A stretch of 64,000 nt of DNA, from assembly GCF_016403105.1 (NCBI RefSeq), contig NZ_CP046155.1, forward strand, positions 992,001 through 1,056,000, given 5' to 3'. The position numbers were made by a program, and so were the translations under genes. This DNA is from Leptolyngbya sp. BL0902. GTDB lineage: Bacteria > Cyanobacteriota > Cyanobacteriia > Phormidesmidales > Phormidesmidaceae. Within the stretch, counting starts at the first letter, position 1. Every line of letters begins with the position of its first letter. Positions 32,392 to 57,576 of this stretch are shown here, in pieces. The notes beneath the pieces were generated by a model. It had not been told where the DNA came from, made no database searches, and was given only the letters and a program-made list of their open reading frames with translations.

Positions 32392-32526
32392 CTCAGTAGA
32401 TCACAAACGCACTCTTTTGCCACGATCCAGCCCTCACCCTAAATCCCTTTCCCACATTGGGAGAGGGACTTTGAAGGATCTTCCGGCTCCCCTCTCCTCG
32501 CGGGAGAGGAGCTGGGGGTGAGGGCC
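32392..32526 (+). repeat. dispersed double-hairpin repeat, copy B
   Basis: The ~95-base core (32430-32526) has outer arms GCCCTCACCC and GGGTGAGGGCC and two inner hairpins. Upstream of the core, 32392-32429 matches the region before copy D (TCAGTAGATCRCAAACGC), so the ancestral element was longer. It fills most of the serA-prmA gap and could fold as RNA to act as a terminator or stability element. Confidence 0.85.
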
Positions 32527-53592: not shown

Positions 53593-53967
53593 ATGAACCT
53601 GTTTAGCTGGTTGCCCAAACCCAAGCCCCTGCGCCCCGAATCCCGCGTCTACGATCTGAAGGAACGCCTAGACTGGGGTGAACCCGCCCTATCTATTGTG
53701 GATATTCGCGACCGAGAAGACTTCAGCGCCAGCCATGTTACCGGGGCCATCTCCATCCCCTCTCACCAACTTCTCGAAACGGCTCACCGCTGCTTTGAGC
53801 TCAATCGGGATCTCTATATCTATGGCGACACCGACGCGGATGCCACGACTGCCGCTGAGCACCTACGATCCGTAGGCTACAACTCCGTGTCTATCCTGCG
53901 GGGTGGCGTTGCAGCTTGGAAGGCGGCTGGATTTCCCGTCGAAGCGGTGCCCCAGGTGGTGGCCTAG
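53593..53967 (+). CDS. rhodanese-like domain protein without the catalytic cysteine
   Basis: A 124-residue single rhodanese domain. DIRDREDFSASHVTGAISIP and LRGGVAAWKAAGFPVE are family signatures. The active-site loop reads YIYGDTDADATTA, so the Cys that carries sulfur is absent and sulfurtransferase activity is not expected. It may bind an anion or partner protein. ATG at 53593, just after the divergent mutL leader. Confidence 0.85.
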   Translation: MNLFSWLPKPKPLRPESRVYDLKERLDWGEPALSIVDIRDREDFSASHVTGAISIPSHQLLETAHRCFELNRDLYIYGDTDADATTAAEHLRSVGYNSVSILRGGVAAWKAAGFPVEAVPQVVA

Positions 53968-54017
53968 GGGCTCGCTGTAGCCCAACAGCCTAGCTGCTAG
54001 AAGATGGAAGAGCTTAG

Positions 54018-54269
54018 CTACCAGGTAGGATCCACATAGAGGTTAATCACCAGCGGATCGACGCCAGCGGGCACCGCCGAGATACAGGCGCAAATGGGGT
54101 CAGCCTCGCCCTCCACCTCCACCTCACAGGCATGGCAAGACCCCATCAGGCAACCCGTGGGGATGGTGATGCCCGCCCGGTCGGCCACCTTCAGCAGGGG
54201 TTCGCCTACCTCAGCGGTGACGGTAACGTTGTCAGGCAAAAACTGAACCGTGACCATGGTTGACTTCAT
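54018..54269 (-). CDS. small [2Fe-2S] ferredoxin
   Basis: An 83-residue electron carrier of the plant-type ferredoxin fold. Cluster ligands are TGCLMGSCHACEVE (CX4CX2C) and the later CACIS. It is shorter than photosynthetic petF ferredoxin and belongs to the small divergent group. Its ATG overlaps the stop of the upstream DUF2470 gene (TAATG), so they are coupled and may work together, possibly in heme or Fe-S handling. Confidence 0.88.
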   Translation of the reverse strand: MKSTMVTVQFLPDNVTVTAEVGEPLLKVADRAGITIPTGCLMGSCHACEVEVEGEADPICACISAVPAGVDPLVINLYVDPTW

Positions 54270-54690: not shown

Positions 54691-55182
54691 ATGTCTTCCA
54701 CGCCTCCCCCTGCCACCGCCCATCCCTGGCCCACGGGTCATCTCTTCCAGAGCCCAGGGGCGCACCTCACCTATCGCGTGATCGGCCCCTGCTGTCGATT
54801 GTTTGACCGCGAACAACTGCCCTGGCCCTGCTGTCGCATTCAATGGCGGGGCAAAGAACCCAGTTGGCGACGCATTGGCAAACGCCTGGTGCCCGATCTC
54901 GCGACCCGAAAAGCCCCCTCCTACTGCGTGGAAATTGTGGGCCAGGGCTACCACACCCAGCCCTTTGTCACCACCCTCTACACCGCCGAATTTGACGCCG
55001 CCACCCGCAACTGGTGGTACACCAAATCGGCCCACCTCACCCAGGCCAAGGAGCACGGCACCCGCGATCCATCGCCAGCGACCGACGCCACGGAAGGGAA
55101 TGCACAGCCTGGGCCAGCCCCAGAAACCGCCTTGATTTTGCCCAGCGCCGCTGATTGCCGGAGCGAAGGGGCCAGTTTATAA
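54691..55182 (+). CDS. hypothetical protein
   Basis: An unrecognised 163-residue protein rich in Trp, Cys and Arg. The central part (GPCCRLFDREQLPWPCCRI, PSWRRIGKRLVPDLATR, VEIVGQGYHTQPFVTTLYTA) looks like a folded domain, while the C-terminal 50 residues are low complexity. Start at ATG 54691. Its last codons carry the promoter for the following TPP riboswitch. I give moderate confidence because nothing in it is familiar. Confidence 0.55.
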   Translation: MSSTPPPATAHPWPTGHLFQSPGAHLTYRVIGPCCRLFDREQLPWPCCRIQWRGKEPSWRRIGKRLVPDLATRKAPSYCVEIVGQGYHTQPFVTTLYTAEFDAATRNWWYTKSAHLTQAKEHGTRDPSPATDATEGNAQPGPAPETALILPSAADCRSEGASL

Positions 55183-55183
55183 T
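55155..55183 (+). promoter_or_regulatory. sigma70-type promoter of the TPP riboswitch transcript
   Basis: TTGCCG at 55155-55160, a 17-base spacer and a perfect TATAAT at 55178-55183. Transcription would start near 55190, exactly where the aptamer begins. The -10 box overlaps the stop codon of the preceding hypothetical gene. Confidence 0.65.
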
Positions 55184-55187
55184 GCCA

Positions 55188-55268
55188 ACACGCTAGGGGT
55201 GTCCGACCATCGGACTGAGATCATACCCTCAGAACCTGACCTGGTTAATGCCAGCGGAGGGAAGCCAA
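55188..55268 (+). promoter_or_regulatory. TPP (thiamine pyrophosphate) riboswitch aptamer
   Basis: The THI-box signature elements appear in order: GCTAGGGGTGTC, ACTGAGATCATACCC, TCAGAACCTGACCTGG, TTAATGCCAG and CGGAGGGAAGC. They build stems P1 (GCT/AGC), P2 and P4. Such aptamers switch off downstream genes when thiamine pyrophosphate is abundant. A weak stem CAGCCA/TGGCTG followed by TTTAT near 55313-55331 could be the expression platform. The next gene is an SSS transporter at 55619. Confidence 0.95.
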
Positions 55269-55435
55269 TCTTGAGGTCACTAGCCGTTGCCCATAGACCT
55301 AATGTAGGGCAGCCATCTTGGCTGTTTATGCCCTAGACTGACCCATTTGTTGGGTGATTCTCGTGGGAGCTATGGCAGGCTGGAAGCCCGCGCTACCTTG
55401 GGGCAAAGCTGACGTTTTGGGTGACACTTTCTAGC

Positions 55436-55589
55436 TTCAGTAGATCGCAAACGCGCTCTTGGGTTGTGATCTGGCCCTCTCCCTAAATCCCTCTCCCAAC
55501 TTGGGAGAGGGACTTTGAAATGCTTCCGGCTCCCCTCTCCCACGGGGAGAGGGGCTGGGGGTGAGGGCCAGACCTTCGCGACTACTGAA
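55436..55589 (+). repeat. dispersed double-hairpin repeat, copy D, with 8-bp terminal inverted repeats
   Basis: The best-preserved copy. Both inner hairpins are nearly perfect (CCCTCTCCCAA with TTGGGAGAGGG, and CCCCTCTCCC with GGGAGAGGGG), and TTCAGTAG at 55436 is matched by CTACTGAA at 55582-55589. It lies between the TPP aptamer and the symporter, ending 29 bases before the ATG and just before the AGGAGGTG ribosome site. No target-site duplication is evident. The rest of the leader (55269-55435) shows only the weak stem noted with the riboswitch. Confidence 0.85.
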
Positions 55590-55618
55590 CCCTTTGTTCT
55601 AGATTAGGAGGTGTTTGG

Positions 55619-57118
55619 ATGACGCTCGGCATAACCGCCATTGCGGTAATTTTGATCACAGCAGCCAGTTTTACCCTGCTAGGACTGTTGCAGGCCAGCC
55701 GCCACACCATCAGCCTGGAAGACTACTTGGTGAGCCGCAACCGGGTAGGCACGGGCATGGCCTTAGCCACCATCGTGGCCAGTGCTATGGGAGCCTGGAT
55801 TTTGTTTAGCCCGCCGGAAGTAGGGGCCACCAGCGGCATCGCCGGAATTGTGGGCTACTGCATTGGGCAGGCCACCCCCGCCGCCCTGTTTGCCTTCATG
55901 GGCACCCGAATGCGGTTCCTCATGCCAGCGGGCCACTCGCTGAACGAGTATGTGCTGCACCGCTTTGGACAGGCCATGTATCGGCTGACCCTAGCGATTG
56001 TGGTGTTCTATATGTTCGTTTACCTGGCGGCAGAACTGACGGCCATTGCCAAGGCGGTGGAACTGATGGCTGGGGTGCCCCTCTGGCTGACAGCCCTGCT
56101 GGTGATTTCCGCCGTGTTCATTTACACCCTGGTGGGTGGCCTAGAGGCAACGATTTTCACCGATGCCGTGCAGTTTGCGGTGATTGTGCCGCTGCTGCTG
56201 TTGAGCTTTGGCATTGCCGTCTTTGCCCTGGGCGGTTGGGGCAATGCGGTGGCCCCGGTGCAGGATGCAGCCCCTCAGTTGTTGACCCTCGCCAACGGGC
56301 CGGGGCTTAAATTTGGGGCCACCTTGGTGATTGCGGTGATTTCCGCCGAAATGTTCAACCAAACCAACTGGCAGCGGGTCTATGCCTGCAAAACCGATAC
56401 CGTGGTGCGTCGCTCCTTTTTGGGCTCGTTTTTGGTGATTTGGCCGATGCTGTTCATCTCTGGGCTGCTGGGCATTGTGGCCATGCACTTCGGCTTCAAT
56501 GACGACCGCGCCTTTTTCTCCCTGATCCAAGCCCTGGAACTGCCTGGATGGGTGAATATTGCCGTCCTCGTCCTGGTGCTGGCCCTGGTGATGAGCAGCC
56601 TGGATTCCCTGCTGAACGGCATTGCCAGCGTCTTTACCACCGACCTGTTGCGGATCTTTCCCGAAAAGTCCACCAGCGGCATCCTCAACCTCACCCGTGG
56701 GCTGACCCTCATCATCGGCATTCCCGCCATCCTGATCGCCGCTAGGGGTTACAACGTGCTGTACCTATTCCTGCTGGCGGATTTGGTCTGTGCTGGGGCG
56801 CTGTTTCCCGTCCTGTTTGGCCTCTACTCCAGACGCCTCACCGGGCAAATGGCCCTCTGGAGTACCGTGGCCGCCATCGCCGCCGGAGCCTTGTTCTTCC
56901 CCAAACCCGACTTTAGCCCCTGGAATGGTCTACCCTTCGCCGGGGATTTGCTGGTCAGCTTTGCCGCCCCCATCGTCGTCTCCACCGCGCTTTGTCTGGG
57001 GTGGATTCAACTCCGCGCCCGCCAGAGCAAAACCGAAGCCTACGATTTTGGTCAGCTCAGCCGCGATATCCAAGCCTATGGTTGGGCCAAGGAGGACGCC
57101 CCAGAACACCGTCCCTAA
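55619..57118 (+). CDS. sodium:solute symporter family transporter under TPP riboswitch control
   Basis: A 499-residue inner-membrane carrier with about 13 hydrophobic helices. SSS-family features include SLEDYLVSRNRVGTGMA near the start, NQTNWQRVYACKT in the middle and SSLDSLLNGIASVFTTDL near helix 8. It begins at ATG 55619 behind an AGGAGGTG ribosome site. Its 5' leader carries a TPP riboswitch, so it should be made when thiamine is short; uptake of thiamine or a precursor (HMP, thiazole) with Na+ is inferred. It overlaps the convergent next gene by four bases. Confidence 0.88.
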   Translation: MTLGITAIAVILITAASFTLLGLLQASRHTISLEDYLVSRNRVGTGMALATIVASAMGAWILFSPPEVGATSGIAGIVGYCIGQATPAALFAFMGTRMRFLMPAGHSLNEYVLHRFGQAMYRLTLAIVVFYMFVYLAAELTAIAKAVELMAGVPLWLTALLVISAVFIYTLVGGLEATIFTDAVQFAVIVPLLLLSFGIAVFALGGWGNAVAPVQDAAPQLLTLANGPGLKFGATLVIAVISAEMFNQTNWQRVYACKTDTVVRRSFLGSFLVIWPMLFISGLLGIVAMHFGFNDDRAFFSLIQALELPGWVNIAVLVLVLALVMSSLDSLLNGIASVFTTDLLRIFPEKSTSGILNLTRGLTLIIGIPAILIAARGYNVLYLFLLADLVCAGALFPVLFGLYSRRLTGQMALWSTVAAIAAGALFFPKPDFSPWNGLPFAGDLLVSFAAPIVVSTALCLGWIQLRARQSKTEAYDFGQLSRDIQAYGWAKEDAPEHRP

Positions 57119-57576
57119 AGCTCTAAAAAGCGAACCAACCGCTCGACAATTTGTCGCTGCTTGGCACAGGGTTGGTGGGACATCAAGCTCAACTGCTGAC
57201 CCGATTTTAGGTCTACGCTGGCGCTACAGGGGCGTCCTCGCCCAGAAGTCCGGCGCTTTACCTGGATGGTGCGAATGTCTCGCAGATTGCAGGTAAGGTG
57301 CCGGGTTTGCCCCAGGATGTTGCGCTGGAAAATGGTTAACTGCCCTGTGCCACGGTCGATTAAACAGCCGCAGGGGATTTTTTCGATGAAGGCATAGGCT
57401 GAAATCCCCCCGGCAAAGAGCAGCCAAAGTACACTCCTCGCCGACCCCTCGACCAAGACCAACAGCACCGCCACCAAGGCGGCTACCCCTAGGAACGCCC
57501 CTACCCCAAGTTGCCACGCGCATTCTTCCCGAAACTCGATGTGTAGTCTGTAGGGCGTCTCTTCCAGGATTTTCAT
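57115..57576 (-). CDS. hypothetical membrane protein
   Basis: A 153-residue protein with two close transmembrane helices (about 22-42 and 48-64; VAALVAVLLVLVEG and VLWLLFAGGISAYAF) followed by a cytosolic beta-rich domain (LTIFQRNILGQTRHLTCNLR). The layout resembles small PH-like membrane proteins, but I do not recognise it. It ends three bases before the 3' end of the symporter and starts just after the phosphodiesterase stop, so it is probably cotranscribed with it. Confidence 0.7.
   Translation of the reverse strand: MKILEETPYRLHIEFREECAWQLGVGAFLGVAALVAVLLVLVEGSARSVLWLLFAGGISAYAFIEKIPCGCLIDRGTGQLTIFQRNILGQTRHLTCNLRDIRTIQVKRRTSGRGRPCSASVDLKSGQQLSLMSHQPCAKQRQIVERLVRFLEL

Follow-up and report, generated by a model that had tools for sequence, protein, structure and literature searches.

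When a thiamine pyrophosphate (TPP) riboswitch precedes a transporter gene in a cyanobacterium, does the transporter bring in vitamin B1 (thiamine) or one of its precursors, and does the switch still control it? The question is raised by a 64,000-nucleotide stretch of the Leptolyngbya sp. BL0902 genome (contig NZ_CP046155.1, positions 992,001 to 1,056,000 of the forward strand; this whole stretch is called the window, and positions are counted from its first letter). Here the original prediction placed an aptamer with its own promoter ahead of a gene for a symporter of the sodium:solute symporter (SSS) family. The pairing of aptamer and symporter is real and conserved. The explanation that we consider probable as a whole is that the riboswitch heads a sodium-coupled symporter, which would import the pyrimidine part of the vitamin, and that switching would depend on a short leader element, YYCTAGC.

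The aptamer had been described as complete, and a covariance search bears this out: the RF00059 match covers the full model (positions 1-105, E value 3.6e-13) and scores well above the gathering score (Table 1). A whole-genome search returns the same position and score, together with only one further TPP aptamer, which lies before thiC about 2.4 Mb off along the contig. The promoter proposed at the same time is also present and ends just before the aptamer. Its TTGCCG (55155-55160) and TATAAT (55178-55183) boxes, 17 nucleotides apart, match the consensus at 10 of 12 positions, and a scan of 55100-55700 gave two sites that resemble promoters, the second of them on the minus strand, compared with 0.2 expected in shuffled sequences. 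Judged by eye, TATAAT is common to the two closest aligned relatives (loci L004 and L029) and is replaced by TAGGAT in the other nine; the -35 box is not conserved across these 11. No intrinsic terminator that would separate the aptamer from the symporter was found between them, the only one detected being inside the coding sequence at 55634. Rfam matches to a miRNA and to whalefall-1 in the leader are sub-threshold, lie inside the repeat described below and were rejected.

The next gene does encode a sodium:solute symporter, as first read: its product matches the Pfam model SSF (PF00474) with 100.8 bits for a cut-off of 22.8. The NCBIfam model TIGR00813 (sss superfamily) gives 131.6 bits, which is under its cut-off of 184. 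An AlphaFold2 model (predicted local distance difference test score 89.9) adopts the SSS (LeuT-type) fold, and the closest solved structures are CHT1 (Z 38.3, 468 residues aligned, 2.8 Å), SiaT (Z 35.8, 449 aligned, 2.9 Å) and DUR3. A Proteus gene considered as a possible SiaT reads as PutP and was rejected as such.

Table 1. Features of the riboswitch-symporter unit (window positions; SD, Shine-Dalgarno sequence; MITE, miniature inverted-repeat transposable element)
Feature	Positions	Strand	Basis or remark
Sigma-70-type promoter TTGCCG-N17-TATAAT	55155..55183	+	10/12 consensus; -10 kept in L004, L029
TPP riboswitch aptamer	55185..55279	+	RF00059, 71.2 bits, cut-off 54.3
GCTAGGGG, 5' side of the first aptamer helices; proposed to pair with the anti-SD element	55192..55199	+	Covariance alignment; complement YYCTAGC frequent in leaders
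ACTTTCTAGC, putative anti-SD element	55426..55435	+	190 nt before ATG; complementary to 55605-55612
154-bp MITE-like dispersed repeat, ends TTCAGTAG...CTACTGAA	55436..55589	.	Between anti-SD element and SD; not in 11 aligned relatives
SD AGGAGG	55606..55611	+	Sequence; identical in L004, L029
SSS-family symporter, ThiV-like, 499 aa	55619..57118	+	PF00474; SSS fold; relatives

The same pair recurs in related genomes. All 29 close-relative loci (L004-L032) carry an over-cut-off aptamer upstream of the symporter. Of the 63 genomes of the organism's own family, 54 have TPP aptamers and 56 have symporter matches at E ≤ 0.001, the latter figure including distant SSS paralogues. At E ≤ 1e-60, a phylum-wide sample yields matches in 4 of 386 genomes; close orthologues are therefore not general among cyanobacteria. 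The best 80 of 339 loci in a scan of the collection belong mainly to Leptolyngbya-type cyanobacteria, then to Chloroflexota, Kiritimatiellae and one Opitutae. From these 80 loci 40 genomes were drawn (25 cyanobacteria and 15 of other phyla), the remaining 40 loci being left out mainly as close relatives already covered in the family and close-locus scans. Several of the 40 are metagenome-assembled genomes (MAGs) whose completeness is not reported, and two (G463 and G465) are, by identical coordinates, the family members G018 and G055. In 39 of the 40 an aptamer precedes the symporter by no more than 700 bp, and in 36 it is over cut-off. Relatives with the aptamer before an unrelated gene would have spoken against the pair; in the 29 loci and the 39 genomes it is the symporter that the aptamer precedes. 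One locus (L082, genome G073) seemed to lack the aptamer when judged by the Rfam cut-off, but its leader contains the blocks CTAGGGG, CTGAG and AACCTG, a long additional stem, and YYCTAGC 43 nucleotides before the start position used; it is not counted as an exception. We also rejected the idea that the symporter arrived recently from another phylum: of the 39 sequences in a protein tree, 27 are labelled Cyanobacteriota, and all but one of these (L151, a MAG, which groups with the other phyla) fall on one side of a branch with support 100/99. The Opitutae MAG (L165) carries a divergent pair of TPP aptamers separated by about 100 bp (contig 53782-53887, minus strand, and 53994-54105, plus strand), one of which heads the symporter.

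The leader between aptamer and start codon suggests the usual anti-SD/anti-anti-SD layout, in which TPP would turn translation off. When TPP is scarce, YYCTAGC would pair with its complement in the aptamer, GCTAGGGG, leaving the SD accessible for synthesis of the transporter; with TPP bound, the aptamer would retain GCTAGGGG and the freed YYCTAGC would close the SD. The element is present in the window's clade and in its sister group. It occurs in 42 of 53 leaders (the window and 52 of the 65 cyanobacterial loci in the best-80 list) compared with 2.98 expected from shuffles, and within the last 90 nucleotides in 37 compared with 1.47; many of these leaders are from near relatives, and the shuffle expectation is not a probability. 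A further 13 loci provided 11 readable leaders, two of which have just 10 and 28 nucleotides from aptamer to start, and the element was seen in one (L135), giving 43 of 64 readable leaders in total. Among the 37 leaders made up of the window and those with the element no more than 65 nucleotides from the start, 21 show a complementarity between element and SD that equals or betters the top 5% of shuffles (median rank 0.037), and in 31 short folds pair at least three SD bases, the latter a count with no shuffle control. The leader of this genome's own thiC bears the same elements (GCTAGGGG, CCTCTAGC and TAGAGG), and YYCTAGC is also found in the thiC leaders of L065, L066, L069 and L084; five others (L110, L114, L116, L118 and L129) were read over just 10-11 nucleotides and are uninformative. 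Since the leader contains no intrinsic terminator, terminator-type switching was rejected and a translational model is preferred; the pattern of motifs suggests that switching is probably translational.

In the window this leader holds a feature that was overlooked in the first reading: 154 of its 339 bp are a dispersed repeat with inverted-repeat ends, found in at least 44 places in the genome, the window copy included (rows of at least 111 bits, counted by eye). Another copy lies at window positions 32394-32526 (G000:C1:1024394-1024526). The repeat begins on the base directly after the anti-SD element and is in none of the 11 aligned relatives, L004 and L029 included. As a result of the insertion the element lies 190 nucleotides before the start codon, compared with 35-39 in most close relatives. 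The statement that the riboswitch controls this symporter is upheld to the extent that the pairing is conserved in relatives, but control of the window copy is uncertain, its platform being split by the repeat. The mobile repeat lies in the loop of the proposed switching hairpin, where it is predicted to keep the SD closed regardless of the state of the aptamer, and the window copy may, on this folding model, be repressed or uncoupled from TPP.

It is possible, although we lean against it, that the insertion broke the platform and left the unit dead or constitutively shut, a situation compatible with the explanation preferred for the family as a whole. The point of insertion falls precisely between anti-SD element and SD, and the predicted SD accessibility is 0.01 in both aptamer states. 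Nevertheless, the reading frame is intact, and the protein is 94% identical to that of L004 (genome G035) and 97% to that of L029 (G040, over the 395 residues on its contig). In addition, the arms ACUUUCUA (55426-55433) and UAGGAGGU (55605-55612) are still complementary (eight pairs, two of them G-U), a repeat that folds on itself can leave such arms close together, and folding of a 340-nucleotide leader is unreliable.

The original prediction had also stressed that the gene behind the aptamer is not thiC. This holds in the window genome, in which symporter and thiC are far apart and each has its own aptamer, but the contrast is softer than it seemed because a number of relatives have symporter and thiC in one operon behind this aptamer. 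Such single-aptamer operons occur in ten family loci (L071, L072, L074, L075, L076, L077, L078, L079, L080 and L081) and in six of the 40 sample genomes, 16 genomes in all among those examined. The thiC positions were checked in the ten operon loci, and the ThiC proteins were read out for four of them. In L077 the aptamer scores 48.2 bits, below cut-off. In L080 (4579-6170, plus strand; genome G061) the symporter sequence that separates aptamer from thiC is spread over two reading frames, from either a broken gene or a sequencing error. In L065, L066 and L069 the two genes are near each other with one aptamer apiece, and in G027 an aptamer and thiC are present with no close symporter.

In many carriers of the symporter no intact thiC was found. 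In the 40 genomes thiC is over cut-off in 19 (18 of 25 cyanobacteria and one of the 15 others, 14 being without), whereas ThiG is matched in 38 (weakly in G471) and ThiE in all 40, over cut-off in 36. In each of the seven cyanobacteria without thiC over cut-off (L112, L115, L120, L123, L124, L150 and L151), the matches to ThiG (E ≤ 1.7e-109) and to ThiE (E ≤ 2.2e-66) are strong, and L115, L123 and L124 are from records not labelled as MAGs. Leptolyngbya sp. FACHB-8, FACHB-502 and Elainella saxicola E1 are among the strains in which thiC is not intact. As a background, the phylum sample's own, family and class rows, counted by eye, include 183 with and 3 without thiC among the rows listed, on the assumption, drawn from their order, that all class rows are shown. 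A Fisher test of 7/25 against 3/182 gives p 1.5e-5, for samples of unlike quality. In the own family, thiC is over cut-off in 51 of 63 genomes. Two of 45 near-complete family genomes (G021 and G038) have no thiC match and keep both aptamer and symporter; for one of the 43 with a match (G013) this is just a 40-residue fragment at a contig end.

Three loci bear on the loss of thiC. Pegethrix bostrychoides (L168, 3087-3182, minus strand) has a 32-amino-acid thiC remnant with 78% identity. In G021, an assembly without a thiC match, a second TPP aptamer (L067, 4291-4387, minus strand) stands beside an apparent transposase gene instead of thiC. Leptolyngbya sp. FACHB-8, also with no thiC match, has a second TPP aptamer without thiC (L166, 3136-3235, plus strand), followed by a minus-strand open reading frame (ORF), a short ORF and KsgA- and IspE-like ORFs, none of which reads as a thiamine gene. 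The ORF names at L067 and L166 come from reading translations, not from a family search. The remnant and the two second aptamers have the appearance of traces of thiC decay or loss.

The first reading left the cargo as thiamine or a precursor. The precursor is favoured: the pyrimidine is likelier than thiamine itself because many carriers without intact thiC keep thiG and thiE. By comparison of genes and genomes, the protein most likely belongs to the ThiV type of Na+ symporter and carries the B1 pyrimidine, either hydroxymethylpyrimidine (HMP) or its amino analogue, aminomethylpyrimidine (AmMP). TenA acts in pyrimidine salvage. Three haloarchaeal homologues (L184, L186 and L188; WP_258303806.1, WP_222923640.1 and WP_227356023.1; about 40% identity over 93-96% of the query), all plasmid-borne and annotated as sodium:proline symporters, lie directly after tenA, and the Halobaculum homologue also adjoins thiD and a thiamine-phosphate synthase gene. 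This neighbourhood provides independent support for a pyrimidine cargo, and the haloarchaeal genes themselves are probably B1-pyrimidine symporters. A covariance search found no TPP aptamer in these three loci; a Halomonas homologue (36% identity) has one at its start. The role of TenA is also given in PMC10881298.

Import of intact thiamine or thiamine phosphates rather than pyrimidine would agree with TPP control, which suits any B1 vitamer, and algal SSSP-type proteins have been hypothesised to carry thiamine or HMP (PMC4260697); we judge it unlikely, since the thiG and thiE retained by thiC-less carriers would be needless for a thiamine importer and the three haloarchaeal homologues adjoin tenA. 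Very improbable is a riboswitch that serves thiC with a general SSS transporter (for example, of proline or pantothenate) caught in the operon without a B1 role, since, although one aptamer serves both genes in the operons counted above and the NCBIfam matches include the PutP and PanF models, the window protein is far under their cut-offs and the symporter keeps its aptamer in genomes whose thiC has moved away, has an aptamer of its own or is lost, in other phyla too.

With a pyrimidine symporter as the preferred reading, a history can be outlined, to which we give somewhat less than even chances: the TPP-controlled symporter would have allowed Leptolyngbya-type filamentous cyanobacteria to lose thiC repeatedly, becoming pyrimidine auxotrophs dependent on their neighbours, and the repeat would have uncoupled the window importer from TPP.

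SSS-family transporters under TPP riboswitches (ThiV/SSSP) are known outside cyanobacteria, in SAR11 and marine algae, and pyrimidine import was proposed for SAR11 ThiV from the absence of thiC with thiazole genes kept (PMC11452348, PMC4260697). The former places the ThiV/SSSP signature residues at SiaT positions 78, 139 and 254. The system described here is similar in having a PF00474 symporter with a TPP riboswitch directly upstream, conserved across relatives, and many carriers that keep thiazole genes without thiC. It differs in its cyanobacterial hosts, most of which have thiC, often in the same operon. The sample includes carriers that retain thiG and thiE where thiC over cut-off is missing; the window's genome is not one of them, as it bears thiC. 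A TPP riboswitch before thiC is known from cyanobacteria (PMC3766115, PMC1242208), and a 2013 survey of 14 cyanobacterial genomes reported TPP control for thiC alone; the window aptamer is of the same class and shares leader elements with the thiC of its own genome, but precedes a transporter gene. The haloarchaeal symporters, for their part, have tenA beside them and no TPP aptamer, while the window gene has no adjoining tenA. Transcripts of Nostocales have led to the suggestion that cyanobacteria take up B1 by a different transporter, omr1 (PMC12442306). In agreement with the remark that an SSS role in thiamine transport is little described in cyanobacteria, we found no report of a cyanobacterial ThiV, of a TPP-controlled symporter or of thiC-less cyanobacteria in the literature searched, most subscription papers lying outside its coverage. 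The pair, most likely a riboswitch-controlled B1-precursor importer of the ThiV type, is new for cyanobacteria within that literature. The kind of system is ordinary and the lineage unexpected; loss of thiC is part of its history, and this strain carries a mobile repeat within the switch.

Several observations weigh against this explanation. The window genome has its own thiC and therefore no need of pyrimidine import. Thiamine may be a second substrate, and we found no transport or expression data for the cyanobacterial symporter group in the literature. One genome (L150, G472) has neither aptamer nor thiC, the sole exception among the 40. YYCTAGC is absent from 11 of the 53 leaders and from 10 of the 11 added ones, mostly in the deep-branching clade L125-L144, in which a different platform must act; the added leaders make us slightly less sure of the general switching model, which we still hold to be probable. 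Pairing of element and SD is no better than in shuffles in the nearest named relative, L086 (rank 0.32; 0.057 for the window), and in whole-leader folding blocking the element raises SD accessibility in only 19 of 36 leaders and lowers it in three. In the window leader the repeat is predicted to pair with the SD, and its removal changes the predicted accessibility in the two states to 0.10 and 0.47.

Cyanobacteria are treated as B1 prototrophs and as producers for their communities (PMC10881298). If the explanation is correct, some of them are consumers of B1 precursors, the importer being present in dozens of filamentous species, several of which were found without intact thiC. The symporter family is easily misnamed, as the annotation of the haloarchaeal homologues illustrates, and the window copy is a natural experiment on the effect of a mobile repeat on a riboswitch. 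At its 3' end the symporter gene overlaps by 4 bp (57115-57118, including its stop codon) the end of a convergent ORF (57115-57576, minus strand) with no family match.

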